Assembly: GCA_030625085.1 (NCBI GenBank) | Contig: DAOURK010000018.1 | Span: 1 to 45,999 of the forward strand | DNA: 45,999 nucleotides | Direction of reading: 5' to 3' | Origin: Pseudomonadota bacterium | Lineage (GTDB): Bacteria; SZUA-182; DTGQ01 | Shown here: piece by piece, positions 16,346 through 45,999 of the stretch | Layout: the number at the start of each line of letters is the position of its first letter | Numbering within the stretch: the first letter of the stretch is position 1 | Translations under genes and position numbers: made by a program | Notes under the pieces: model-generated | The model's database searches: none | Told to the model about the DNA's origin: nothing | The model's input: the letters and a program-made list of their open reading frames with translations, nothing else

Positions 16346-18147
16346 TTAATCCAAGGGACCAGGAAAATTATATATCTTCATGAGCTTCCAAAGAGTAGTT
16401 CTACTTATATTAAGAATTTCAGCCGCTTTCTTTTTATTGCCCTTAGTCTTCTGAAGAGTTAAGGCAATTAATTCCTTAGATAAGTCGCGGCTGTTTTGGA
16501 GCCTTATTCTTATATTTACCTTTTTGGGTATTTCTTGTGCTTTTAATACCCTCTGAGGTAAATCAACCGGGGTAATAAAATTGCCCTTGACTTTTATAAA
16601 ACCATATTCCAAAACTCCTTCCAATTCCCGAATATTTCCAGGCCAGTGGTAATTGAGTAAAATTCCCATTGCATCAGGTGAGATATCTGTTATCTCTTTT
16701 TTAAAAATATTTCTGCATCTCTCCATCAAGTGATTCACCAAAAGAGACAGATCTTCTATTCTCTCCCTCAGAGGGGGCACAAAGATCGGGACCATGGCTA
16801 GACGATAATAAAGATCTTCTCTGAATCTTCCCTCCTCAACTTCTTTTTCCAAATTCTTATTCGTAGCGCCAGTACCCTGAGATTGACTTTGATTGTTTTT
16901 TCACCCCCTACGGGCTCGAATTCTCGCTCTTGTAATACTCTGAGCAACTTACCCTGAATCGTGGGGCTGATGTCCCCAATCTCATCCAAAAATATGGTCC
17001 CGCCGTGGGCCAATTCAAACCTCCCTCGTTTATCTCTTATGGCGCCGGTAAAGGCCCCCTTGACATGCCCAAAAAGCTCGCTTTCTAAAAGATTTTCTGA
17101 AAAAACCGAACAGGATACGGCTATAAAAGCACCTTTCTGTGGGCTGTTATAATGAATAGCCCTGGCAATGAGCTCTTTGCCGGTACCGCTCTCTCCTTGG
17201 ATTAGAACTGTGCATTGAGTTTGGGCCACACTGACTATGAGGTCAAAAATTTCTTGCATTTTTTCGCTTTTGCCAATAATGTTGTCAAATTTATATCTTG
17301 CTCGTAATTCCTTTAAATAAGTAAGTTTACATTCCTTAAGCTTTTCTTACAGCCTCCGGTTTTCGCTGATATCCCTAAATATTTGTAAAACAGAGCGGGT
17401 TTTATCCATATTCGGAAAGGGGAAGGAAGTAATCTCAAAAAGATTTCCACGTTGATCTTTTCGATAAAAAATGTGGAATGGCTCATTTTTATTCAATATT
17501 TGAAAATCAGGACATTTGTTTTCGGCACATTTCGATTCTCTTCCATGTAAAATCTTATAGCAGTCGTTACCAACTTCAGAGCCAAATATTTTTATCAGAT
17601 ATTTGTTCATAAATTGTATTTTATAATGAGGATCTATAATTAAAACCCCTTCTTGTATAGTATTTAAAATAGTATCCAGCATATATTGCTTATTTTCCAC
17701 CTCTTCTCTAAGCCTTTTCGTCTCAGAAACATCCTGAAAAAATACCCTGCTTTTATAAATCCTTCTTTTTCCATCATGCACGACATCAATATCAGTATTT
17801 ACCTCCACAATCTTCCCATCTTTTCTAATCAATTGATATCGTATGTTACGAAATTGATTTTCTTTTTTATTCGGATTATGGATAATTTTTTCAGCCAAAA
17901 TCTGAGTCTCTTTAGTGAAAAGAGGGAGCAAAGATTTTCCGATTAATTCCTCTCGTTTATAGCCCAATAAATAAGCAAAAGCAGTGTTACAATCAATAAC
18001 GCCCAATTGTTCATCTACAGAAAAATTAATATCAGGAATATATTCGCAAAGTTCTCCATAGAGTTTTTGAAGCTTATCATATCCCCTTTGGAGTTTTTCA
18101 AACGCCTTTTTTTGGGTTGCCAATTGTGATGTTAGTATGTCTTTCAT
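16346..18147 (-). pseudogene. PAS-PAS-AAA+-Fis sigma-54 activator, doubly interrupted
   Basis: A NtrC-family enhancer-binding protein of about 600 residues in three pieces. 18147-17350 encodes a coiled N-terminus and two PAS domains, the second with a cysteine cluster (GNDCYKILHGRESKCAENKC). An in-frame TAA at 17347-17349 follows ISENRRL; reading through it continues in the same frame as [20 protein letters not shown]. The AAA+ core then has Walker A GESGTGKE, the sigma-54 contact loop GAFTGA and Walker [13 protein letters not shown] one-base deletion near 16867-16869 breaks [19 protein letters not shown]. The last piece carries the AAA+ lid and a Fis-type helix-turn-helix (GNKKKAAEILNISRTTLWKL). 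It is divergent from the ole cluster and might once have regulated it, but I find no sigma-54 consensus before oleA. Confidence 0.88.
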
Positions 18148-32210: not shown

Positions 32211-32266
32211 GGCAGCAATTCGCATTTTAACATTTTTATGTAGCACAGGGCTACAATGAATTTTAA

Positions 32267-33223: not shown

Positions 33224-36200
33224 TTAAGGTCCCGGAATATTGTCAACAGTATAATGTGTTCCGTTATAGTCATAATCAACACTCCATCGCCAACTACCCG
33301 TGGGCCTGATCAGCCGATTTAATAACACTTCAATGTCGGCATCCATAGCTCCGGAATCACAGGCCGTCCATTTTTCACCACCTGGGCCAATATCACCTAG
33401 ATCACTTACACCCTTCGATATTTGAAGGTTGGTTGGTGTTTCCATCAGCGTTATTCTCACATTTTCCGCAGTACCTGCCCCAAGGTTTTTGAACAAAACT
33501 TTAAGTCCCATTCTGTAAAGAGTCCTGCTCAGGGGCACCCTGAAGCAAGTTTGCTGCTCCTGTAACCAGATGTCCACTGCTGGTCCAGAAGAATTCACTG
33601 TTACTACCAAGGTGGCTATATCACTGGCGCCATCATTGTCGGTTACCTGTACTGCTACTGTGTATGTGCCGGCTGTCCCCCAGGCATGGGTCTGATTTGC
33701 TCCCGTATCTCCTGAGGCATCGAAGGTGCCGTCATAGTTCCAATCCCATTCATAACTTACTATTGAATCTGGTGGCGCCACAAATGATCCGCTCGCATCG
33801 TAACTGCCGGTATCACCCTCGTTCAAGGGCGTATCTCCCGTCAACACTGCTGTCGGACCTGCGTGATCATGCACTGTTACTACCAAGGTGGCCATATCAG
33901 TACTGCCGTCATCGTCGGTTACCTGAACGGCTACTGTATATGAACCGTCATCATTCCAGGTGTGATTTTGAGTTGCCCCGGTATCTCCTGAGGCATTGAA
34001 GGTGCTGCCGTTATAATCCCAATCCCATTCATAAAGTACAATGGCATCACAAGGACTAATGGAGCCAGCGGCATTGTAGTTGCCCGAAGCTCCCTCATCA
34101 ATAAGTGTATCTCCGGTCAAGGACGCTGTCAGGCTAAGATCATTGACAGTCACCGTCAGTGTGGCTATATCCGTACTACCGTCATCGTCGGTTACCCGCA
34201 CAGCTACTGTGTATACACCGTCATCCATCCAGGTGTGACTTGCGGTTACTCCGGTATCTGAGGCATTGAAAGTAGTGCCGTCATATTCCCAATCCCACTC
34301 AAAACTCACAATGCAATCACAAGCTCTGCTGGAGCCGGATGCATCATAGTTGCCCGCAGAGCACTCATCTATAGCCATGTCTCCATTCAGGTTTGCTGCT
34401 GGCCCTAAATCGTTCACTGTTACCACTAAGGTGGCCATATCAGTGCTTCCATCATCGTCAGTTACGCGCACTGCTACTGTGTATACACCGTCATCCATCC
34501 ACCTATGGCTTTGGATTGCCCCCGTATCTCCTGAGGCATTGAAGGCACTGCCGTCATAATCCCAATCCCACTCATAAAGTACAATAGCATCACAAGGGCT
34601 GGTAGATCCGTCGGCATCGTAGTTGCCAAATGAGCACTCATCAATAGTGGTGTCTCCCGTCAAATCAGCCGTGGGGCCCTTATCCGTGATAGTTACATCA
34701 TGGGAAATTGTGTCGGTAGACCCGTCATCATCAGTAACCAGCAAGGTCACTGTATAGATACCATTATCATTGAAGGTGAAACCGGGATTCTGATCACTGC
34801 TTGTTCCAAGACCCCCAAAATCCCATGACCAACCAGCGATAATATCTGGTGAAGAAGCGGAAGTATCCGTGAAATTGACGGCCGAGCACTCATCCTGTGG
34901 CTCAGGATGCCAGGTAAAAGAGGCCGTAGGTGCCAAATCATTGACCGTTACCGCGGCTGTGTCCGTATCATCCAATAATGAATCAGATACTCTCAGTCCG
35001 ACTGTATAAACGCCGTCATCTAACCACGTCCAGGTTGGCATTTCAGCGGTTGAATCGTCATAGTCCCCATCATCATCCAGATCCCAGAAAAAATAAAGGG
35101 TATCACCATTAGCATCGGAAGACCCGCTCCCATCCAGGATGAGGAGAGTACCCTCATTCACAACATAGGGTCCGCCGGCGTCAGCCACAGGCGGCAGGTT
35201 TATATTAACCGTTACTGTGGTGTAAACAGGTGTCGAATTCATTGAGATGCAGTCCACTCCAAGGGTGCAGCCGAGAGGATTGAAGGCCCCGTTATCCCAT
35301 ACCTTAAGGCCTATATTATAAACACCAGGCGCTGTGAAAATCCACGTTGCAGTGGTATTGGTGGTTTCAAGATCAACATCATCGAACCAGACCCCATCAT
35401 TGTCCAGGTCCCATTGATAGAGCGAAACGCTGTCACCGAGGTCAACATCATAGGAACCGCTCGCATCCAGAGTAAAGGGTATCCCGACGGTTGCCGTGTA
35501 TGCGCCTCCGTGCATGGCAAAAGGTGCATGAGGCGGTTCAGTGACGGTCACCTCTCTGGTGTCAATATCAGTTTGAGGCGGTTCATTGTCATCAGTGACC
35601 CTGAGTCTTACGGTATAAATTTGAGGAGGATCACCAGCTACCAGGGGCTGGGGATCAGGATAGGTATATTTGGCGTTTGAATCTGAAGGATCAGAAGTAG
35701 TAAAATCCCAGATGCCGTCGCCGTTAAAATCCCATTCGTATCTGACAAGGCTCCGTGAAGGATCCATGTGAAAAGATCCGGAAGCATCAAAGCGTAGTTC
35801 CAAGTCATAGGCCCAAATGATGTCATCTCCGGCATCCGCCACCGGCGGTTGGACAAAGAGGCTGGGGGTCAGCATGATAATTGCCCAGCTTGTATTCAAC
35901 CCGCGTCCGCCGTAACCACCGCTGAGCCATGAACCCCAATATCCTCCGGAGGTAGTTTGCAAATCTAGAATTCTCTTGTTGATACCCGTTATCGGGTCAC
36001 TGTACCAGTCTAAACCAGTGGCCTGTAGGATGACAACAGGAGTGGGCCTGGCCAATCTCATGGCCTTGACCCAGGCATACAGGCCGTAGAAGTTATTATA
36101 TTGCCAAGAATGGCCGTTAGTCTGCCAGTAATTGGCATTGTAATCCTCGGCAGTGATCCACCGTGGATCGGAGGTGTATTTATCGCAGAAGGCAAGCTGA

Positions 36201-39200
36201 ACCATACCCGACGGGGTGGTGGCCACTCCGTTGCCAGGGCCAGTATAGCCGAAGCCGGTGCCGTTATAACTATAATTCAGCCAATAATCATTTTGCTCTT
36301 TAACAAAATCCGGCACATTAATACCAAAGTTGTCTTCTGCTGCCAGCATACCTATGGCAGCCCACTGACAGGCAGAGTTATCTGCATCACTATTCCAATT
36401 ATAACGCCAACCACCTCGGTCACTACCCAAATCATCTTGCCCCCAGGCATACATATCCACCATGTCGGTCAGAATATGGTAGTAAAATCTTCCATTAATA
36501 TTGGTACCTCCGGTGGTGGCAAAGGCTAAAGGCATATTAGAGGAGGCAATGGCGTCCATGACCATACCTCCCTCATATATTTCACGACTGCCGTTGGTCT
36601 CTATCCCAATGCCATTTCCATTACTATCAGGATTCCCATATGTTTGGGCGCTGATATTGTAAGATTGCAAACACTTGAACAAATATTCAAAACCTCGATT
36701 CACCGTCTCTACATATGGGTTCTCCTGATTGTCGCCGTCTTGGAGATGGCCGTTAATCTCAAAAGATTGAATGGCTGAAGCCGTTGGTGAGGCATAATAG
36801 CTGCTGTATGACGACCACTTGCCGTAATCACTGCCGCTCCTGTCCTGGTTTTTATGCTGATACCAGAGGCCCTCGTCAATAGCAATATTCGTCCTTGTAT
36901 CAAGATTATTGGGACGGACAATCACATAGTAGTTATCAGTGCCAACAAGACCACTGCTGTCCCATACAGTCAGGGTGGCCGTATAAGGTGTGCCGTCAGT
37001 AGAATCAGGATAGGTATGGCCGGCCTCAATTGCATACTTGTTGCTCACCGTTGCCGGTGTGGCCGGGGAGACTGCTGATCCATCGCCAAAATTCCACTGG
37101 TAGGTAAGAGTACCCGCATCCCTGACTATGGCTTTCAGTCTAATACTGCGGCCATTGTATGTTTCATGAGGGATGGTTGGATCTCCAGATCTCCAGGGCA
37201 CGCAGATTACATCAGGGGCCAGGTTGGTGGCCACATTCACGGTAGAAGTTGCAACGGCCGTCTGTCCTGCTCCGTCCTCTACAGTAAGGGTAACCGTATA
37301 GGTGCCCGCAGTGGGATAGGTATAAAAAGGCTTTCGACCCACTACATCCATATCGTTAGTAAAATCTCCGTCACCGTCGCTGTCTACAGAATTGTCTACA
37401 TCCCACAAATATTTCACAATGCCGTAGTCGTCTGTTGAGCTGCTGCCGTTAAGGTAAGCCGGAGGTCCTCCGGCGCCGGCATTGTAAGGCCCACCCGCAT
37501 CAGCTACCGGCGGATCACCTGCAGCAATAACATGAACTACCATGGTATCGCTGTCGGACTGCAAGGTTTGATCATATACAGTAAGTGTAACCGTGTAATC
37601 TCCAGTATTCCAATAAATGTGGGTCGGGGTTTTACCTGTGTCGGTTGTCCCGTCACCAAAATCCCATTCATATTTATAGACACCAACATCATCAGTGGAG
37701 TTTCCACCGTTAAAGACAACCGGCCAATACCCCTCGGTGATTTGATCCGGTCCTGCCTCGGCGACTGGAGGATCACCGTTGGTCAAGGTAACCGTAGCAG
37801 TATCAATGGTTGACTGCAAGGCATGGTCAGTCACTCTAAGGGCTACTGTATAAATTCCAGCCCCTGTATAGATATGAGTGGCAGTGTCCGCTGTATCTCC
37901 TGAAGGATCAAAGGTCCCGTCATAATCAAAATCCCACTCATAGGTATAGATGCCGTAATCGTCGGTTGAACCCGTGCCGTCAAAATCAATGATCCAAGTG
38001 TTTTCAAAGGCGTCGCTTTCATCGCCGGATTTGTCCGGCCCGGCATCGGCAACCGGAGGATCATTGGCCTGAGTAGTTACGCTCGAAAAATCCGTGTCTG
38101 CCTGTGCTACCTGATCATAAACCGTGAGGCTGATGGTGTGGCTGCCAAGGCAGTAAAAACGGTAAGAGGGGGTGGGGCCTGCAGCGAATTCCCGGTAATC
38201 ATCTATTGTAAATGTTCCATACCGGATGGTTGTCCCTCTTAAAAAAGCTGTTTCGCTGCTGTAGCTGGAATCATACAAAAAAATCCAGTCCGGTGAGCCG
38301 AGTGTGCGGTAATAGTATCTTGCTCCTTGAGTTTCTTTAAGCTCAATCAGGACTTCATACCAGGTGTTGAAAGAATAATTATAACCGGTGTCGCCCCGGT
38401 TAGCCCCATTTTCATAAATATAGATATTTCCATGATTGAAATAAATGGCATAGGGCATCTGAGTGTAAGAGTAATTGGTATTGGTGTTTTTAAACCCGAC
38501 CATGGCATAATGGCTGCTGTGCTTGACCTTGGCCTCAAAGGCCATACCATTGGCCCTGGTATATGTATCTTTGCTGAAGAGGTAACGCTGACCCCAAGAA
38601 TTATTGCCCACAATGGAGATCTCATCATTCTGGGTCACATTGGAATTATAAACCCACTTGACGTTATTGATAACCGTTCCGTTAAATTCATCAGTGCCCA
38701 GATCCCAAACATATTTGCTGATACTCGATTCATTATCAGAAGATCCGGAACCATCCAGGGCAACTGTCCAGCCCCCTTCAAAGGCGTTCCCGGTGTTTTC
38801 ATCTACCGTATAGGGCCCGTCTGCATCAGCCGTGGGAGGATCACCCTGGGTAATGGTGACGGTCATGGTGTCAATATGGCTTTGAAGGGCATGGTCCGTG
38901 ACCCGGGTGGCCACCGTATAAATCCCCGGCGCCGTCCAGGTGTAAGCAACCGTTGAGCCAGTGTCATCAAAGACCCCGTCATCATCAAAATCCCACTCGT
39001 AGGTATATATTCCATAATCATCGGTGGATCCCGAGGCGTCAAAATTCACCGTCCAGGAACCGTCGGCTGCATCAGTTTCATTCTTGGTCTGATCAGGTCC
39101 AGCATCAGCAACCGGGGGATCACCGTCGGTAATAACCACCGTGGTGCTATCCGTATCACTTTGACCGGCCCGGTCGTAAACGGTCAGATCAAGGCCAAAG

Positions 39201-41989
39201 GTCCCTGTCCCTTTATACAGGGTAAAGTCAGGGCTCTGCCCTGCCGTAGTTTCCAGAAAGTCATCCATACTCCAGGTGCCGCTATGAACGACCATTCCCT
39301 TTCTGAGGTTCGTATCCCCGGTTGTATAACCGGAATTATAAACCTCATGCCAGTCGCTTGTTCCGGAGAGCCGGTAAGAATATACCGCACCCGTTTCTTT
39401 GAGTTCGATTTTAAAATCGTACCAGGTGTTATACGAATAATTGTATCTTGTATCACCCCGGTAACTGCTGTTTTCATAAATGTATATATTTCCATTGGCG
39501 AGATAAAATTCATAAGGAAACTGATTATAGTGGAAATTGGTAGTATTTTCATTCTTAAATCCGAACATGCTCTGCCCACTCCCAGTAGTCATGATCTTGG
39601 CCTGGAAGACCTGCCCTTTCACCTTGGGAAAAGTGGCCTTGCTGACCATATAGCGGGTATTCCAGGTATTCGCTCCGGTAAGGGAGACCGCGTCACTTTG
39701 GGTAATTCCGCCGTTGGTGTGCCATTTTTCGCTTTGAAAGGATGTGCCGTCAAAGGTATCCTGCCCAAAATCCCAGACATATTTTCTGATCTCCACATCA
39801 TCGGAAGATCCTGAGCCGTCCAGGCTGAATGTCCACCCGCCTTCGCTGGCTGCTGACTCATCCGCGCTGTATGGGCCGTCGGCATCAGCCGTCGGAGGGC
39901 CTCCGGCCTGCATAGTCATGGGGATAATGCCGGTATCGGCCTGCTCGGCTGCATCAGCCACAGTCAAATCTACATTAAATGTTCCGCCTTCAAAGGCATG
40001 TTGTACAGTCTGGCCCGTCGCTGTGGCGGTAACCGTCAGGTTATCAAAAAGGGCATCGGTCCTGTAAGTGGAAAAGCCCACCTTGCCGGAGCTGAAAGTG
40101 CTGTCGGAGTGTGTAAAAAGCAAAATCCCGTCCAGGTAAAACTCTATTTGGCTACCAATGCAAACAATTTTGATTCTATAGGTATTGCCGGTGTCGATGG
40201 GATAAGAGGGGAAATCTGAAGGCAGGTCATACTCAAAGACATTGGTAGCGCCCTCGTTCACCCGCCGGTACAAAAGAACATCATTATTTCCTCTTCCCCT
40301 CAGGATATACTCGTAGTTGTTATAATGATTTTTGGCCCGAAATATAATCTGGACCTCCTCACCGGAACCTGACACCATATAGACATCCGCCTCGATGGTT
40401 ACATCCGTATCGAAAACCTTATTGACCAGGGTCCAGGTCCGATCCGGACCGGCATCTGTCTGGCGATAAGAATGAAGGCCGGTTATGGGGGCTGCACTCT
40501 CTATCCCCCAGGTGCCGGCAAAGCCATCCCAGCCCACCGTATCTGCATCCTCAAAATTATCGGTGCAACCGTCATCAAGGTCCCATTGGTAAGAGACAAT
40601 GCCTTCAGTATCAGAGGCATAATTGACGCCGTCAAGGAGTAAATTCCAAAACCCGTCATCAGCCAGAAGCTCGCCAAAGGTCACCGGCGTGGTATCCACG
40701 GCCGGCGTATCACCCTCGACAATGACCACAGCGGCCTCATAATCATTTTTATTATCATCATCCGTCACCTTGAGATTGGGGAGATACGTTCCTTCATCCG
40801 CATAATCATGGTCGGTGGTTCCCACATCCGTTCCAGTGCCGGATTCGGTTGACGTACCGTCGCCAAAATTCCACACCCACGAAGCCAGGACGCCGTCCCA
40901 ATCAAAAGAGCCTGAGCCGTCAAAATCAGCCGTGCCGCCCTCGGCAATGGTTTGTGTGGCAGGAGAAATAACCGCTGTGGGCACTCCGTCCGGCGGCCCC
41001 AGGGGCGGGGCCGACAACCCCATGCAATTGTATGAAGTTGTTCCTATCTCGACAGCAGACCCGAACGTACCATCACCATTACCCGGATAGTAGTAAACTC
41101 TTTTACCGGTATAATTTGCGGCCACCACATCAATATTTCCATCTCCATCAAAATCAAAACCGTCATAACAGCCGTGATTGTTAAAGTCCAGGCTGCCGAC
41201 ATAGCCGACATAAGTAAAGGTGCGGTCGCCATTGCCGGTCCAGAGCTTGGGATCGCCATTGCTGCCATAATTGGCTATGATATCCATATTGCCGTCATTG
41301 GTAAAATCAGCGGCCACCACGCCGTACGGATCAGTCCCTGAATCTCCTACTTGAAGATTACTGGGGAAGGCGCCTGTACCATCTCCCCAGTAAACATTAA
41401 TATATCCACTGCTATATCTTGCCCGAACAAAATCGAGATGACCGTCATGGTCAAAATCTCCAGTATCCATACCGCGACCGTAACTGCCAAGATTCATCTC
41501 GGTTTTCGTGAAATTCCCCATGCCATCTCCAAGATACAAGCCCGTAGTGCTTTGATTGCCATTGGCAATAAAATCCATGTTACCATCGTTGTTGAAATCC
41601 CCGGAAGCCATATCCATGGCCCAAGAACTGGCGTTGCTCAGTGTTCCGACAATACCGCTCTTGGTGAAATTGTTGCTTCCGTCATTCAAAAAAAGATAAT
41701 AATAAGCCGTACTTGATATGCCGCGGCCGGCAATAAAATCCATATGGCCGTCGTTATTGAAATCGTTAATGGTCACCCCGCGGGAGTTATAACCGCCCAG
41801 ATAATCCAGAAAACCGTAATTACTGAAGGTACCGTCGCCGTTGCTCTCAGCATAGTATAAGCGTGAGTAATCATCCACGGCGATGATAAAATCAGCCGCC
41901 CGGGCCAAATTTAAGCCCGCTCCAAAGGTCAAAAACACAATCAATGCGATTGAAACAAAATGCAGATACCTTTTGGCGTGTTTCGTCAT
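33224..41989 (-). CDS. giant secreted multidomain PKD-repeat protein
   Basis: About 2,920 residues from ATG 41989, chosen because AAAGGAG lies 7 bases upstream and a signal peptide follows (FVSIALIVFLTFGAGLNLARA-AD); an ATG at 42049 would add 20 residues. Order by position: FG-GAP/VCBS propeller repeats (about 41900-41000; DFNNDGHMDFIAG, DFDHDGHLDFV), a PKD domain, a concanavalin-like domain (about 40560-40020), then PKD domains alternating with two related lectin-like modules (about 39780-39190 and 38730-38180). More PKDs are followed by an alpha/alpha toroid resembling prenyltransferase/squalene-cyclase repeats (about 36900-35890), then about ten further PKDs and a 100-residue beta-rich tail. 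Aspartate-rich loops suggest calcium binding. No sortase or PEP-CTERM anchor is seen. Likely an extracellular adhesin or matrix protein; the function is not established. Confidence 0.9.
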   Translation of the reverse strand: MTKHAKRYLHFVSIALIVFLTFGAGLNLARAADFIIAVDDYSRLYYAESNGDGTFSNYGFLDYLGGYNSRGVTINDFNNDGHMDFIAGRGISSTAYYYLFLNDGSNNFTKSGIVGTLSNASSWAMDMASGDFNNDGNMDFIANGNQSTTGLYLGDGMGNFTKTEMNLGSYGRGMDTGDFDHDGHLDFVRARYSSGYINVYWGDGTGAFPSNLQVGDSGTDPYGVVAADFTNDGNMDIIANYGSNGDPKLWTGNGDRTFTYVGYVGSLDFNNHGCYDGFDFDGDGNIDVVAANYTGKRVYYYPGNGDGTFGSAVEIGTTSYNCMGLSAPPLGPPDGVPTAVISPATQTIAEGGTADFDGSGSFDWDGVLASWVWNFGDGTSTESGTGTDVGTTDHDYADEGTYLPNLKVTDDDNKNDYEAAVVIVEGDTPAVDTTPVTFGELLADDGFWNLLLDGVNYASDTEGIVSYQWDLDDGCTDNFEDADTVGWDGFAGTWGIESAAPITGLHSYRQTDAGPDRTWTLVNKVFDTDVTIEADVYMVSGSGEEVQIIFRAKNHYNNYEYILRGRGNNDVLLYRRVNEGATNVFEYDLPSDFPSYPIDTGNTYRIKIVCIGSQIEFYLDGILLFTHSDSTFSSGKVGFSTYRTDALFDNLTVTATATGQTVQHAFEGGTFNVDLTVADAAEQADTGIIPMTMQAGGPPTADADGPYSADESAASEGGWTFSLDGSGSSDDVEIRKYVWDFGQDTFDGTSFQSEKWHTNGGITQSDAVSLTGANTWNTRYMVSKATFPKVKGQVFQAKIMTTGSGQSMFGFKNENTTNFHYNQFPYEFYLANGNIYIYENSSYRGDTRYNYSYNTWYDFKIELKETGAVYSYRLSGTSDWHEVYNSGYTTGDTNLRKGMVVHSGTWSMDDFLETTAGQSPDFTLYKGTGTFGLDLTVYDRAGQSDTDSTTVVITDGDPPVADAGPDQTKNETDAADGSWTVNFDASGSTDDYGIYTYEWDFDDDGVFDDTGSTVAYTWTAPGIYTVATRVTDHALQSHIDTMTVTITQGDPPTADADGPYTVDENTGNAFEGGWTVALDGSGSSDNESSISKYVWDLGTDEFNGTVINNVKWVYNSNVTQNDEISIVGNNSWGQRYLFSKDTYTRANGMAFEAKVKHSSHYAMVGFKNTNTNYSYTQMPYAIYFNHGNIYIYENGANRGDTGYNYSFNTWYEVLIELKETQGARYYYRTLGSPDWIFLYDSSYSSETAFLRGTTIRYGTFTIDDYREFAAGPTPSYRFYCLGSHTISLTVYDQVAQADTDFSSVTTQANDPPVADAGPDKSGDESDAFENTWIIDFDGTGSTDDYGIYTYEWDFDYDGTFDPSGDTADTATHIYTGAGIYTVALRVTDHALQSTIDTATVTLTNGDPPVAEAGPDQITEGYWPVVFNGGNSTDDVGVYKYEWDFGDGTTDTGKTPTHIYWNTGDYTVTLTVYDQTLQSDSDTMVVHVIAAGDPPVADAGGPYNAGAGGPPAYLNGSSSTDDYGIVKYLWDVDNSVDSDGDGDFTNDMDVVGRKPFYTYPTAGTYTVTLTVEDGAGQTAVATSTVNVATNLAPDVICVPWRSGDPTIPHETYNGRSIRLKAIVRDAGTLTYQWNFGDGSAVSPATPATVSNKYAIEAGHTYPDSTDGTPYTATLTVWDSSGLVGTDNYYVIVRPNNLDTRTNIAIDEGLWYQHKNQDRSGSDYGKWSSYSSYYASPTASAIQSFEINGHLQDGDNQENPYVETVNRGFEYLFKCLQSYNISAQTYGNPDSNGNGIGIETNGSREIYEGGMVMDAIASSNMPLAFATTGGTNINGRFYYHILTDMVDMYAWGQDDLGSDRGGWRYNWNSDADNSACQWAAIGMLAAEDNFGINVPDFVKEQNDYWLNYSYNGTGFGYTGPGNGVATTPSGMVQLAFCDKYTSDPRWITAEDYNANYWQTNGHSWQYNNFYGLYAWVKAMRLARPTPVVILQATGLDWYSDPITGINKRILDLQTTSGGYWGSWLSGGYGGRGLNTSWAIIMLTPSLFVQPPVADAGDDIIWAYDLELRFDASGSFHMDPSRSLVRYEWDFNGDGIWDFTTSDPSDSNAKYTYPDPQPLVAGDPPQIYTVRLRVTDDNEPPQTDIDTREVTVTEPPHAPFAMHGGAYTATVGIPFTLDASGSYDVDLGDSVSLYQWDLDNDGVWFDDVDLETTNTTATWIFTAPGVYNIGLKVWDNGAFNPLGCTLGVDCISMNSTPVYTTVTVNINLPPVADAGGPYVVNEGTLLILDGSGSSDANGDTLYFFWDLDDDGDYDDSTAEMPTWTWLDDGVYTVGLRVSDSLLDDTDTAAVTVNDLAPTASFTWHPEPQDECSAVNFTDTSASSPDIIAGWSWDFGGLGTSSDQNPGFTFNDNGIYTVTLLVTDDDGSTDTISHDVTITDKGPTADLTGDTTIDECSFGNYDADGSTSPCDAIVLYEWDWDYDGSAFNASGDTGAIQSHRWMDDGVYTVAVRVTDDDGSTDMATLVVTVNDLGPAANLNGDMAIDECSAGNYDASGSSRACDCIVSFEWDWEYDGTTFNASDTGVTASHTWMDDGVYTVAVRVTDDDGSTDIATLTVTVNDLSLTASLTGDTLIDEGASGNYNAAGSISPCDAIVLYEWDWDYNGSTFNASGDTGATQNHTWNDDGSYTVAVQVTDDDGSTDMATLVVTVHDHAGPTAVLTGDTPLNEGDTGSYDASGSFVAPPDSIVSYEWDWNYDGTFDASGDTGANQTHAWGTAGTYTVAVQVTDNDGASDIATLVVTVNSSGPAVDIWLQEQQTCFRVPLSRTLYRMGLKVLFKNLGAGTAENVRITLMETPTNLQISKGVSDLGDIGPGGEKWTACDSGAMDADIEVLLNRLIRPTGSWRWSVDYDYNGTHYTVDNIPGP
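33595..34700. repeat. tandem near-identical PKD-coding units
   Basis: Four units of roughly 270 bases encode PKD domains sharing CDAIVLYEWDWDYDGS-type and DGVYTVAVRVTDDDGSTD-type text. They are far more alike than the other PKD domains in the protein, which points to recent unequal recombination within the gene. Confidence 0.8.
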
Positions 41990-42127
41990 TTCTTGTCTCC
42001 TTTCTCTTCCTTCATCCCCTGTGAGTGTTATTTTTTGTATTGAAACCATAGTTGCTTATTTCTTCTTCTGTTTATTATCCTTAATCTTTTTAAAGGTCCT
42101 TTTTTTTAGGCTGATATAGCAAGCCGA

Positions 42128-42894: not shown

Positions 42895-42930
42895 AAAAAA
42901 AAGAGGGGGCAGAAATCAAAGCCCCCTCTT
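42895..42930 (-). terminator. intrinsic terminator of PEP-CTERM gene
   Basis: AAGAGGGGGC (42901-42910) pairs with GCCCCCTCTT (42921-42930). The minus strand runs into a T-tract. It begins 8 bases past the PEP-CTERM stop codon. Confidence 0.92.
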
Positions 42931-42937
42931 TTTCATA

Positions 42938-43558
42938 TTAACTACCTATCTTTCTTTTTAAAAAGCACACCAAGGGTAATCCCAAAAAGAGCAAAAACAT
43001 GGTCGCCGGCTCAGGGACAGGGGCATATTCAAAATTGTCAATATTGAACATATCCCCAACTCCAAATGTGTTCATGTCATCATAAATATGAATTGTATCA
43101 AAACCGGTGGCAAAGGTCAGGCTCATTGAATAATAGTAAAAATTATCAATAAATTGAGATGTTGATGCCACCTGACTGCCTGAAGAGAAGGCAAGAGCAT
43201 AAATGGTTGTGGATAGGTCAGTTAAATACGATTCAATATCAAAAGTGCAGGTCTGAAAAGGATCAACAAGAGGATCTATGCTAATGCCAATAAAGGTGTC
43301 ATATAACCCGGGACTATTACCTATCCCATCGTCAAAACCACTGACAAGGTAAGGATTACCAGGATACCAGGCATCATCTGTCCACGTATCATTCGGCCAA
43401 GATGCACCCGGGTCACCGGCCCAAAAGCTTACGTCTCCTATAATCGGGTCAGATGTACCTAAAGACACTTCACTAAAGTCAATCGAAACGGCTTTAGCTA
43501 CCCCGGTTAGGGCAAGGATTAAAAACAAGGACATTAAAACGAGAGTAATTTTTTTCAT
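42938..43558 (-). CDS. PEP-CTERM sorting domain protein
   Basis: A 206-residue exported protein. It has a signal peptide (LVLMSLFLILALTGVAKA-V), a beta-rich body with many Asp, Ser and Gly residues, and a C-terminal PEP-CTERM signal: VPEPATMF (181-188), a hydrophobic helix (LLFLGLPLVCF) and basic end KRK. Exosortase (EpsH/XrtA) recognises and cleaves such signals, usually for export to the cell surface or extracellular polymer; no exosortase is in this window. AAGGAAGAGGGAAG provides a strong ribosome site. Upstream lie a candidate sigma-54 promoter and two palindromic sites; PEP-CTERM genes in other bacteria are known to be driven by sigma-54 with the PrsK/PrsR pair. Confidence 0.93.
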   Translation of the reverse strand: MKKITLVLMSLFLILALTGVAKAVSIDFSEVSLGTSDPIIGDVSFWAGDPGASWPNDTWTDDAWYPGNPYLVSGFDDGIGNSPGLYDTFIGISIDPLVDPFQTCTFDIESYLTDLSTTIYALAFSSGSQVASTSQFIDNFYYYSMSLTFATGFDTIHIYDDMNTFGVGDMFNIDNFEYAPVPEPATMFLLFLGLPLVCFLKRKIGS

Positions 43559-43790
43559 TCTTCCCTCTTCCTTTATGGATTATGTGTCTAATTTACACTG
43601 TTTATTAAATTGCCTTGTCTAAAAGTTGCCTCAGATGAATAAAAATATCTTTTCATTCTATCTGAGCAAGGAAGTTAAGCAAAAGATATAAAAATAATAA
43701 ATGTAAAATTAATCACCTCCTTTTTATTTCCTGTTAACAACTTCCATTTTGATGTCATCTTGTGATTATTATACAACTGATTTCGTACGG

Positions 43791-43806
43791 TGCAATTTAC
43801 ATACCT
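43791..43806 (-). promoter_or_regulatory. candidate sigma-54 promoter of PEP-CTERM gene
   Basis: The minus strand reads AGGTATGTAAATTGCA, matching TGGCAYG-N4-TTGCW at 9 of 11 defined positions with the invariant GG-N10-GC. Transcription would start near 43780, giving a leader of about 220 bases. Confidence 0.6.
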
Positions 43807-44080
43807 TTTGTCTATATTTAGTGAAAATATTTTTATTTTTGGCTCAACCATCCCTCATCATTGCTCATGAATAATTTACCGTATATTATTTTATCTCTTT
43901 TAAAATAATAAGTTAGACAATGCTTGGTATCCCTTGGGCAGGATGGCTATCAATATCAGCATATATACATCTCTCAGGAGACATCTCCTATTATGGATTT
44001 AATAATATTAAATAATTATTAAAAAAATAAGGTATTATATATTTTTTTTCTTTTTCTCCTTTAATCCAACGATAAAAATA

Positions 44081-44097
44081 TGTAGCCTTTTCCTACA
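44081..44097. promoter_or_regulatory. operator-like palindrome TGTAG-N7-CTACA (site 1)
   Basis: TGTAGCCTTTTCCTACA, followed by CTTTTT. It lies about 280 bases upstream of the sigma-54-like promoter, a normal distance for an enhancer site bound by a NtrC-type activator. Confidence 0.55.
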
Positions 44098-44153
44098 CTT
44101 TTTCCGGATATTTATAACTTATTGATATTATTGATTTTAAAGACATTAAAAAA

Positions 44154-44170
44154 TGTAGTGATTTCCTACA
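44154..44170. promoter_or_regulatory. operator-like palindrome TGTAG-N7-CTACA (site 2)
   Basis: TGTAGTGATTTCCTACA, again followed by CTTTTT, 73 bases from site 1 (about seven helical turns). Conserved arms with a changed spacer suggest a protein-binding site rather than a simple duplication. Confidence 0.55.
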
Positions 44171-44262: not shown

Positions 44263-45417
44263 CTATTTTAATTTTTCATGGGTCCACGATAATTCCGATA
44301 CAATAGATTCAACGATTGGCGCTTTGGGACCGGGTAATACCCCATAGGAGTATGTTTCTACTTCATAGTGCTTTTTATTTCCAATACGCGCCTCCCTGAA
44401 AAATTCATCATTTAAAAAAGAGGCGGTGGTAGAAATTTCTCTCCCTGACCAGATCAAGGGCACATGAAAATGAACTCGCCACTCTCCGCAAGGGGCCGAG
44501 GTCAAGGCATCAGGCAAGTCGTAAAATTTTAGGACCTTTCCCTTTGATGATAATACCCGGGTCTGATGTAAGTAGTATTTATCAGCAAAACTGGTAAATA
44601 TATGCTGTAAGTTGTGTGGCCGATTTTGTTTTTGGCGTCTCAGCGGGATTTGGGCCAGGAGAGCAGCAGATATCTGGATTTTGGGCACCTGAATGCCCTC
44701 CCTCCTAAGCTTTTGAAGCCAGAGCAAGGGCGATTCAAATTCTACAGCCGCATGGCAAGTATCCAAACATATTCCCAGATATCTTGCGGCCGATTGATTC
44801 TGAGTATACAATTTTTTCATATAACTCATAGCAGAGTCCAGGGTATCCAATAAACAATCGGGTTCAGGCTCCAAGGCCAAAATTATCTGTTTTCCTGTTT
44901 TTTTCTCTATTTTAGCCAAAGAGGATGCTATTGATAAAAGGTTAGCTTTAGCCCTTGGATTTTCCTCTTTTCCATAATGAGCCGGCACTGTTGAGATGGT
45001 GCCTGTTTCTCCCTCAGGCAAGATGCCGGCCAGGATGTTAGCCAGATCAAGGGTATAGGATACTCTCAAAGACGATGACCAATCGGGTAGATATACTTTT
45101 TCCTTTATGGCCTCACCATGAAAAGGGCCGTATGGAAAACCATTGATGCTAACAACATACATATTGTGTCGGTGAAGGAAAGTAATAAAATCTTTCAGGT
45201 GCGACAAAAGTTCATTTGCTGCATGGGCGGAAAGCCGTAATCCCAAGGCAAAGGGGGCCTTGGGACAAAACCTTTTTTTTACCTCAAGTGCATACTGCCC
45301 AATGGCAGCCAGATTTTCCTCCCAGCGCTCACCAGGATGAATATTGAGGCAGTACATCAAATGGTTATTTTTATGATTATGGTCATTAATTTTATAATGA
45401 CTATTTTTTAGTTTCAT
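44263..45417 (-). CDS. eboE: EboE-like TIM-barrel protein of the EBO cluster
   Basis: A 384-residue xylose-isomerase-like TIM-barrel protein matching EboE, named a metabolite traffic protein. Landmarks are LNIHPGERWEENLAAI, ILALEPEPDCLLDT, GICLDTCHAAVEFE and EWRVHFHVPL, which supply the Glu, Asp and His expected of a metal site. The first 20 residues (KLKNSHYKINDHNHKNNHL) precede the usual start, so an ATG at 45357 is an alternative; overlap with the eboD stop by 17 bases favours 45417. The EBO cluster occurs in cyanobacteria, Bacteroidetes and algal plastids, and is linked in cyanobacteria to scytonemin export. Its last usual gene, eboF, is not downstream here. Confidence 0.85.
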   Translation of the reverse strand: MKLKNSHYKINDHNHKNNHLMYCLNIHPGERWEENLAAIGQYALEVKKRFCPKAPFALGLRLSAHAANELLSHLKDFITFLHRHNMYVVSINGFPYGPFHGEAIKEKVYLPDWSSSLRVSYTLDLANILAGILPEGETGTISTVPAHYGKEENPRAKANLLSIASSLAKIEKKTGKQIILALEPEPDCLLDTLDSAMSYMKKLYTQNQSAARYLGICLDTCHAAVEFESPLLWLQKLRREGIQVPKIQISAALLAQIPLRRQKQNRPHNLQHIFTSFADKYYLHQTRVLSSKGKVLKFYDLPDALTSAPCGEWRVHFHVPLIWSGREISTTASFLNDEFFREARIGNKKHYEVETYSYGVLPGPKAPIVESIVSELSWTHEKLK

Positions 45418-45862
45418 GACTGAAAGAGGCTTTCATTTCTTGTATGGCCTGCTTCACTTCATCAGGGGAAATACTGTTTATCTCACATTTTTTGCCCAGG
45501 TTATTGGGCATGATGAGGGTGAGCTTGCCGCCTAAATGCTGGCGGAATTCTTCCAAGCCATGATAGATACAAAGAAGGCCATTTTCTTCTTTTTTCTCCA
45601 ATAGTGGGTGCCACAATAAAAAACCGCTTTCCTGAAGGCCGCGGCAAACCAATTGGTATTCCTTCTTATTGACCAATTGGCGATTTCGAGCAATAATCAT
45701 ATCCAAGACAATACCTACAGCCACGGCCTCACCGTGTCGCAAGGCATGACCGCTTAACATCTCCAGATGATGAGCGCTCCAGTGACCAAAATCCAAAGGA
45801 CGAGCAGATCCGAATTCAAAAGGGTCGCCGCTGGTTGCTATATGTTCTGCATGCAGTTGAGC
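45401..45862 (-). pseudogene. eboD: EboD (3-dehydroquinate synthase-like), 5'-truncated
   Basis: The C-terminal ~153 residues of an EboD-type sugar phosphate cyclase. They begin AQLHAEHIATSGDPFEFGSA, followed by RPLDFGHWSAHHLEMLSGHA and LRHGEAVAVGIVLD, containing two His of the dehydroquinate-synthase metal site. Family members run to about 390 residues. The N-terminal two thirds, with the NAD-binding domain and the Glu ligand, are missing: an in-frame TAG stands at 45863-45865, and the sequence beyond no longer resembles this family. An internal ATG at 45796 could express a short inactive fragment. The break may be an insertion, a deletion or a misassembly. Confidence 0.82.
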
Positions 45863-45999
45863 CTATAATAAAAAAATTCAGTTGGAAAATCCGCAAGTAC
45901 TTCTCTAATAAGGTTCTTCAAATAATGGCAGTTTTGTATAATTCAGCCTGTCCGAGTATAAGTAGATCTAAATCCTCATGATTTAAGCATAAAATTACG
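45863..45999 (-). other. unrecognised sequence at the eboD breakpoint
   Basis: The minus strand shows a protein-like frame (LNHEDLDLLILGQAELYKTA then II-stop-RTLLEKYLRIFQLN) interrupted by one TGA and running to the eboD junction. I do not recognise it. It may be the end of an inserted element or another decayed gene. Confidence 0.3.

Follow-up and report, generated by a model that had tools for sequence, protein, structure and literature searches.

At sigma-54 promoters of the NtrC/NifA type, paired dyad UASs are combined with IHF bending and a -24/-12 promoter. For PEP-CTERM genes of Proteobacteria, a PrsK/PrsR sigma-54 module was predicted by Haft et al. in 2006; in that source (PMC1569441), motif 1 is followed by the sigma-54 motif after 32-92 nt (mean 62.8), the sigma-54 element is located at most 221 nt from the start codon, and long upstream regions are typical of PEP-CTERM genes. 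In D. vulgaris, PrsR (DVUA0057) bound five PEP-CTERM targets by DAP-chip (PMC3333781), and one common motif has been assigned to both DVUA0057 and DVU0110 (PMC4641369). Outside D. vulgaris data, the expression of pepA is RpoN-dependent (PMC9850573). In the literature consulted, the support for PrsK-PrsR control of PEP-CTERM genes consists of computational prediction, one DAP-chip set and genetics in floc-forming bacteria; the statement of the preliminary description of our locus, that PEP-CTERM genes elsewhere are under PrsR control, agrees with the prediction and with the DAP-chip data, and the idea is not new.

The region that we describe is located in a window of 46 kb (the whole stretch of DNA that was analysed), and we consider it, with a probability of roughly 80%, to be a PrsR-dependent enhancer and sigma-54 promoter of a PEP-CTERM gene. 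Judged from its sequence, the locus belongs to the PrsR/sigma-54 PEP-CTERM regulon by all features that were compared, with the exception of the box-to-promoter spacing, and carries a lineage-specific box; the switch is a lineage-specific form of the known exopolysaccharide-linked PrsK/PrsR control and not a new kind of regulation. With the PEP-CTERM box regulon of Haft et al. (PMC1569441; TIGR02915/TIGR02916), it shares a 17-nt, sometimes repeated box with TGT...ACA ends, which precedes a -24/-12 promoter and a PEP-CTERM gene that is monocistronic and has an extensive upstream region, and the presence of PrsR, PrsK and PrsT. It differs in the symmetric arms of the box (TGTAG/CTACA, as opposed to TGTCG.../TTTACA), in the window spacing of about 275 nt from the box to the -24 element, which exceeds the published maximum of 92, and in the 71-85 bp pairing of boxes with IHF-consensus sites between the boxes and before the promoter, which the available part of that source does not describe. 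As in the DVUA0057 regulon of D. vulgaris, an NtrC-type response regulator would act on PEP-CTERM genes with sigma-54 promoters (PMC3333781, PMC4641369); the two PrsR proteins are only 44.6% identical, and the examined regions of the D. vulgaris pDV1-type plasmid contain no convincing box of either form with a promoter before PEP-CTERM genes, so that the box in D. vulgaris has probably diverged further. The two dyad UASs, the IHF-consensus site and the -24/-12 promoter are also those of NtrC/NifA-type promoters, from which our locus differs in the regulator, in the box and in its targets, which are exopolysaccharide-associated surface proteins. What is new here is the symmetric TGTAG-N7-CTACA box, paralleled by an RPT to RST change in the recognition helix, together with the frequent occurrence of two boxes at 71-85 bp from each other, accompanied by oriented IHF-consensus sites.

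All elements of the locus are located on the minus strand, 5' of the PEP-CTERM gene. The distal PrsR-type box, TGTAGGAAATCACTACA (44154-44170), is aligned with the distal boxes of the C174, C164 and G003 promoters, and the proximal box, TGTAGGAAAAGGCTACA (44081-44097), was identified by pattern match and promoter alignment; both are perfect TGTAG-N7-CTACA palindromes, and both are included in a 32-nt direct repeat with a spacing of 73 bp. Between them, an IHF-consensus site, TATCAATAAGTTA (44115-44127; consensus WATCAANNNNTTR), has a position with respect to the distal box that is shared with C174 and C164. The boxes are found within the 704-705-bp gap that follows eboE (44263-45417; NF035939, 364.8 bits), the upstream neighbour on the same strand. 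At up to one mismatch, the window contains four sites, as compared to 0.74 expected, and none of 100 shuffles reaches four; within the 705-bp intergenic region, shuffling gives an expectation of 0.0 perfect boxes, and two of them occur in 0 of 5000 shuffles. A third perfect copy in the window, at 32239, is unrelated.

The candidate sigma-54 promoter, AGGTATGTAAATTGCA (43791-43806), is located 232 nt 5' of the ATG, as compared to the published maximum of 221, contains both the GG and the GC of the -24/-12 element, and fits the lineage consensus TGGYAT-N5-WTGCA that is found 5' of sister genes. The preliminary description had reported a 9/11 sigma-54 match, preceded by twin palindromes about 280 and 350 bases upstream: the palindromes are exact, with box edges at about 275 nt (proximal) and 348 nt (distal) from the -24 element, and the strand of the promoter is correct, while the score of 9/11 holds if C or T is permitted at position 4 and drops to 8/11 against the strict consensus TGGCAC-N5-TTGCW. 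Transcription would be expected to start near 43780, giving a predicted long 5' leader of about 220 nt (43559-43780), in which an orphan AAGGAGGTGATTA (43722-43710) and, by folding, stable hairpins are recognised; no known RNA family scores above its gathering threshold in the window. The PEP-CTERM gene itself (42938-43558) encodes 206 aa with a signal peptide and a C-terminal VPEPATMFLLFLGLPLVCFLKRK, and its previous assignment is confirmed by TIGR02595 (25 bits, cut-off 16) and PF07589 (25.5 bits, above cut-off). It is followed by a hairpin that resembles an intrinsic terminator in both directions, GAGGGGGC/GCCCCCTC with runs of T (about 42897-42934), so that the gene is a single-gene (monocistronic) unit with a long upstream region. 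Adjoining the PEP-CTERM gene, 33224-42049 (minus strand) encodes a single secreted protein of 2941 aa with many PKD-like repeats; at the other side, 45401-45999 (minus strand) encodes the C-terminal third of a 3-dehydroquinate-synthase-like protein, in the EboD-type place beside eboE, up to the contig end.

Pattern searches, on which the genome-wide box statistics are based, have revealed 11 perfect boxes in the genome of the window (4.94 Mb), as compared to 4 for the reversed control; this is the top count of 116 genomes, and six of the 11 boxes precede four PEP-CTERM genes and one PEP-CTERM-like gene. In a de novo inverted-repeat dyad search of 31 PEP-CTERM upstream regions, taken from the genome of the window and from the relatives G001-G004, TGTAG-N7-CTACA ranks first, with 11 of the 31 regions (9 of 29 without the two regions that were added for having a box) as compared to a shuffle mean of 0.03; among the other dyads with two or more G/C, the best occurs in three regions. 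The enrichment before PEP-CTERM genes, which had been set beforehand as the test, is thus directly observed in the sequences; together with the constant sigma-54 spacing and the presence of PrsR, PrsK and PrsT, it supports the earlier proposal that these are PrsR sites in this lineage. PEP-CTERM genes are also boxed in G003, which is another genus of the same family (three by pattern search), and a boxed promoter is located 5' of a PEP-CTERM gene in G004, of the same order. In favour of the PrsR reading, the PEP-CTERM genes of G001, a relative with no PrsR above the cut-off, have no box upstream; against it, several PEP-CTERM genes (C230, C68 and the G002 set) have good TGGCAT promoters with no recognisable box nearby. 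The box offers a simple means, at the sequence level, of finding the whole regulon in relatives that have not been cultured. Perfect boxes average 0.94 per genome in genomes without PrsR and 2.25 (control 2.5) in PrsR-bearing genomes outside the family; box counts alone were rejected as a cross-genome marker, being informative only within this family. A boxed gene at L041:11020-11697 encodes a secreted protein ending in VPIPGSFLLLACGLFGLALLKRERS, a PEP-CTERM-like tail that is missed by the Pfam and NCBIfam models.

The alignment of the promoters has revealed a shared plan, which begins with AAAGTGTAG-N7-CTACA, an IHF-consensus site and a second box, and continues with a further IHF-consensus site, a TGGCAT-N5-WTGCA promoter and a long leader; some of these parts are missing from individual promoters. 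The paired boxes are spaced 71-85 bp at seven promoters, and the box is located 68-104 bp from the -24 element at nine promoters (G000, G003 and G004). IHF-consensus sites occur 10 times in 2.56 kb of cassette, all in one orientation, as compared to 0.53 expected (0 of 500 shuffles), while their density in nearby genomic DNA is 0.20 per kb; the window site is located between the boxes only. Three HU/IHF-fold proteins of the genome have their best match to the IHF-alpha or IHF-beta models, below the curated cut-offs. The helical phasing of the boxes relative to the promoter (P about 0.02-0.08 at 10.5 bp) is suggestive of spacings compatible with same-face positioning, the statistics being weak. 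At L034:180-315 (C174), a complete box, an IHF site and a TGGCATAAAAAATGCG promoter are aimed off the contig end, with the target gene unassembled.

The genes prsK, prsR and prsT, and XrtA-type exopolysaccharide genes, are directly observed in this genome. PrsR (C174:2866-4233) scores 571.8 bits against TIGR02915 (cut-off 502.6), and PrsK (450.8 bits, cut-off 300) and PrsT (534.3, cut-off 312.2) are encoded on the same contig; the neighbours of prsR also include two PEP-CTERM genes behind a box pair and XrtA-associated genes. Another box, on C194, sits among XrtA-type exopolysaccharide genes, and no convincing promoter was found behind it. More than 20 PrsR relatives with a sigma-54 activation domain are present in the genome, of which only one passes the PrsR cut-off; the many AAA+ enhancer-binding proteins point to the genome encoding RpoN. 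G003 has two PrsR copies above the cut-off, while G001 has none, and neither does G004, though one of its promoters is boxed. G002 has one PrsR above the cut-off (L127, G002:C246:362-1690), whose reading frame is interrupted by a TAA located between the AAA+ and HTH regions. Within the window, an NtrC-family (TIGR02915-like) gene at 16367-17310 (minus strand) is interrupted by in-frame stop codons and by a change of frame, and looks like a broken enhancer-binding-protein gene.

PrsR is found above its cut-off in 24 of 386 sampled genomes. By anchoring on the sigma-54 sites of 81 PEP-CTERM upstream regions, we have recovered the box of genomes outside the family, which is 17 nt long and TGTCG-N6-TTTACA-like (13 sites with up to one mismatch, as compared to 0.67 in shuffles), in agreement with motif 1 as given in PMC1569441 (17-nt, ending TTTACA). 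The window box has the same length and the same TGT...ACA ends, but its arms (TGTAG/CTACA) differ; some distal boxes of its own genome retain one TGTCG arm. The recognition helix reads [S]RPT in most PrsR proteins, a few of them having G, V or N in third position, and [SA]RST in this family; among the aligned proteins, the R-S-T helix occurs only in this family's PrsR. We give slightly less than even odds to a co-divergence of PrsR and its box within the lineage, from R-P-T to R-S-T and from TGTCG-N6-TTTACA to the symmetric TGTAG-N7-CTACA, with the enhancer becoming a fixed two-box, IHF-bent cassette and an orthogonal PrsR-box pair; a small number of residues, or even a single one, may then account for the switch in specificity and, since the family members share one ancestor, the change of box and helix may be a single event. 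In this family the enhancer cassette is clean and repeated, its box is distinct, and the DNA-reading helix of the regulator shows a matching change, so that both the specificity of PrsR and the role of IHF can be tested directly. Ten PrsR relatives from named genomes were below the PrsR cut-off, matching AtoC/NtrC models or nothing at this stringency, and were not used; G035, with 530 bits for TIGR02915, was also rejected as a true PrsR case, since its helix is of the generic Fis type and the genome lacks a PEP-CTERM gene.

The same palindromes could have arisen by chance in AT-rich DNA, or could be unrelated elements, such as the operators of another repressor. Stray perfect boxes do occur, e.g. 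in a coding frame (C186), at C139:320 and at the window copy mentioned above, and the control patterns yield four in this genome; these are outweighed by the enrichment before PEP-CTERM genes, with the dyad search already contradicting chance, by the pairing and the constant spacing to sigma-54 sites, and by the conservation in another genus, so that we regard chance as very improbable. It is less far-fetched, though still improbable, that TGTAG-N7-CTACA is read by an NtrC-family regulator other than PrsR: TIGR02915 picks up many paralogs, a box pair is present at C181 of G004 although this genome has no PrsR above the cut-off, and in D. vulgaris one motif serves for DVU0110 and DVUA0057 alike (PMC4641369). 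PrsR remains the preferred reader, as the sole protein above the PrsR cut-off adjoins prsK, prsT and a boxed PEP-CTERM operon, the box agrees in length and ends with that of PrsR in other phyla, and among the aligned proteins only this family's PrsR has the R-S-T helix.

The spacing of the window promoter is the weakest part of the case. The preliminary description had called the layout classical, but it is not that of its own regulon: the sigma-54 site is located 291 bp from the proximal box (start-to-start), the longest spacing found, as compared to 68-104 in its siblings, with the other long spacings being 146 (C239, in which the gene comes after the promoter when read from an internal start that yields a signal peptide) and 178 (C239 of G004). 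The published rule of 32-92 nt between box and sigma-54 motif fails at the window (about 274 nt), whereas nine sibling promoters, at 51-87 nt, conform to it; the rule thus holds for the regulon taken together, and the window promoter is an outlier. The window cassette can be aligned with its siblings through the proximal box, after which the proximal IHF site and the TGGCAT promoter are missing; no GG-N10-GC sigma-54 site is found on the correct strand at 68-104 bp from the box, and the spacer contains no IHF site near the promoter. It is conceivable, although we find it unlikely, that the boxes are genuine PrsR boxes whose promoter, 70-100 bp downstream, has been lost, leaving a decayed or rewired region in which 43806-43791 is a weak replacement or a fortuitous match; its -24 element indeed lacks the T of TGG, the first base, which is the only deviation from the lineage consensus. 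Against this, sites that score at least as high as the candidate number only four in the whole window, both strands included, and this one is located on the correct strand, 5' of the gene; the two boxes and the intervening IHF site are intact, and UAS-promoter distances of more than 300 bp are known from four D. vulgaris cases (PMC4641369). Since enhancer-dependent promoters tolerate such distances (PMC4641369), the window promoter may work. A mobile-element insertion as the source of the long spacer is unsupported: no repeat of the spacer is found elsewhere in the genome, and its inverted repeats are many and AT-rich.

If the region is indeed a PrsR-dependent enhancer, PrsK would activate PrsR, a member of the NtrC family, and phosphorylated PrsR dimers would bind the two boxes; IHF, or an IHF-like protein, would bend the DNA between them, allowing the dimers to meet and form an active AAA+ ring, which would reach the sigma-54 polymerase at the candidate promoter via looping. 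The secreted PEP-CTERM protein would then be made while the exopolysaccharide system is on. We infer PrsR binding, IHF action, promoter use and the signal from sequence only.

An orphan GGAGGTG, a near-perfect anti-Shine-Dalgarno complement with no start codon nearby, is located in the window leader (43710-43722, minus strand), at about 8330 of L034, and in the leaders of C68, G003 C10 and G003 C29, 44-82 nt after the sigma-54 promoter. GGAGG occurs in 6 of 18 PEP-CTERM leaders, as compared to 1.9 expected, with 6 of 500 shuffles reaching six; the element could be a CsrA or ribosome-standby site, the statistics being weak. A strong hairpin, CTCAGAT...ATCTGAG, is part of the predicted fold of the window leader (43556-43779, minus strand), which has -42.3 kcal/mol and a z of -2.28.
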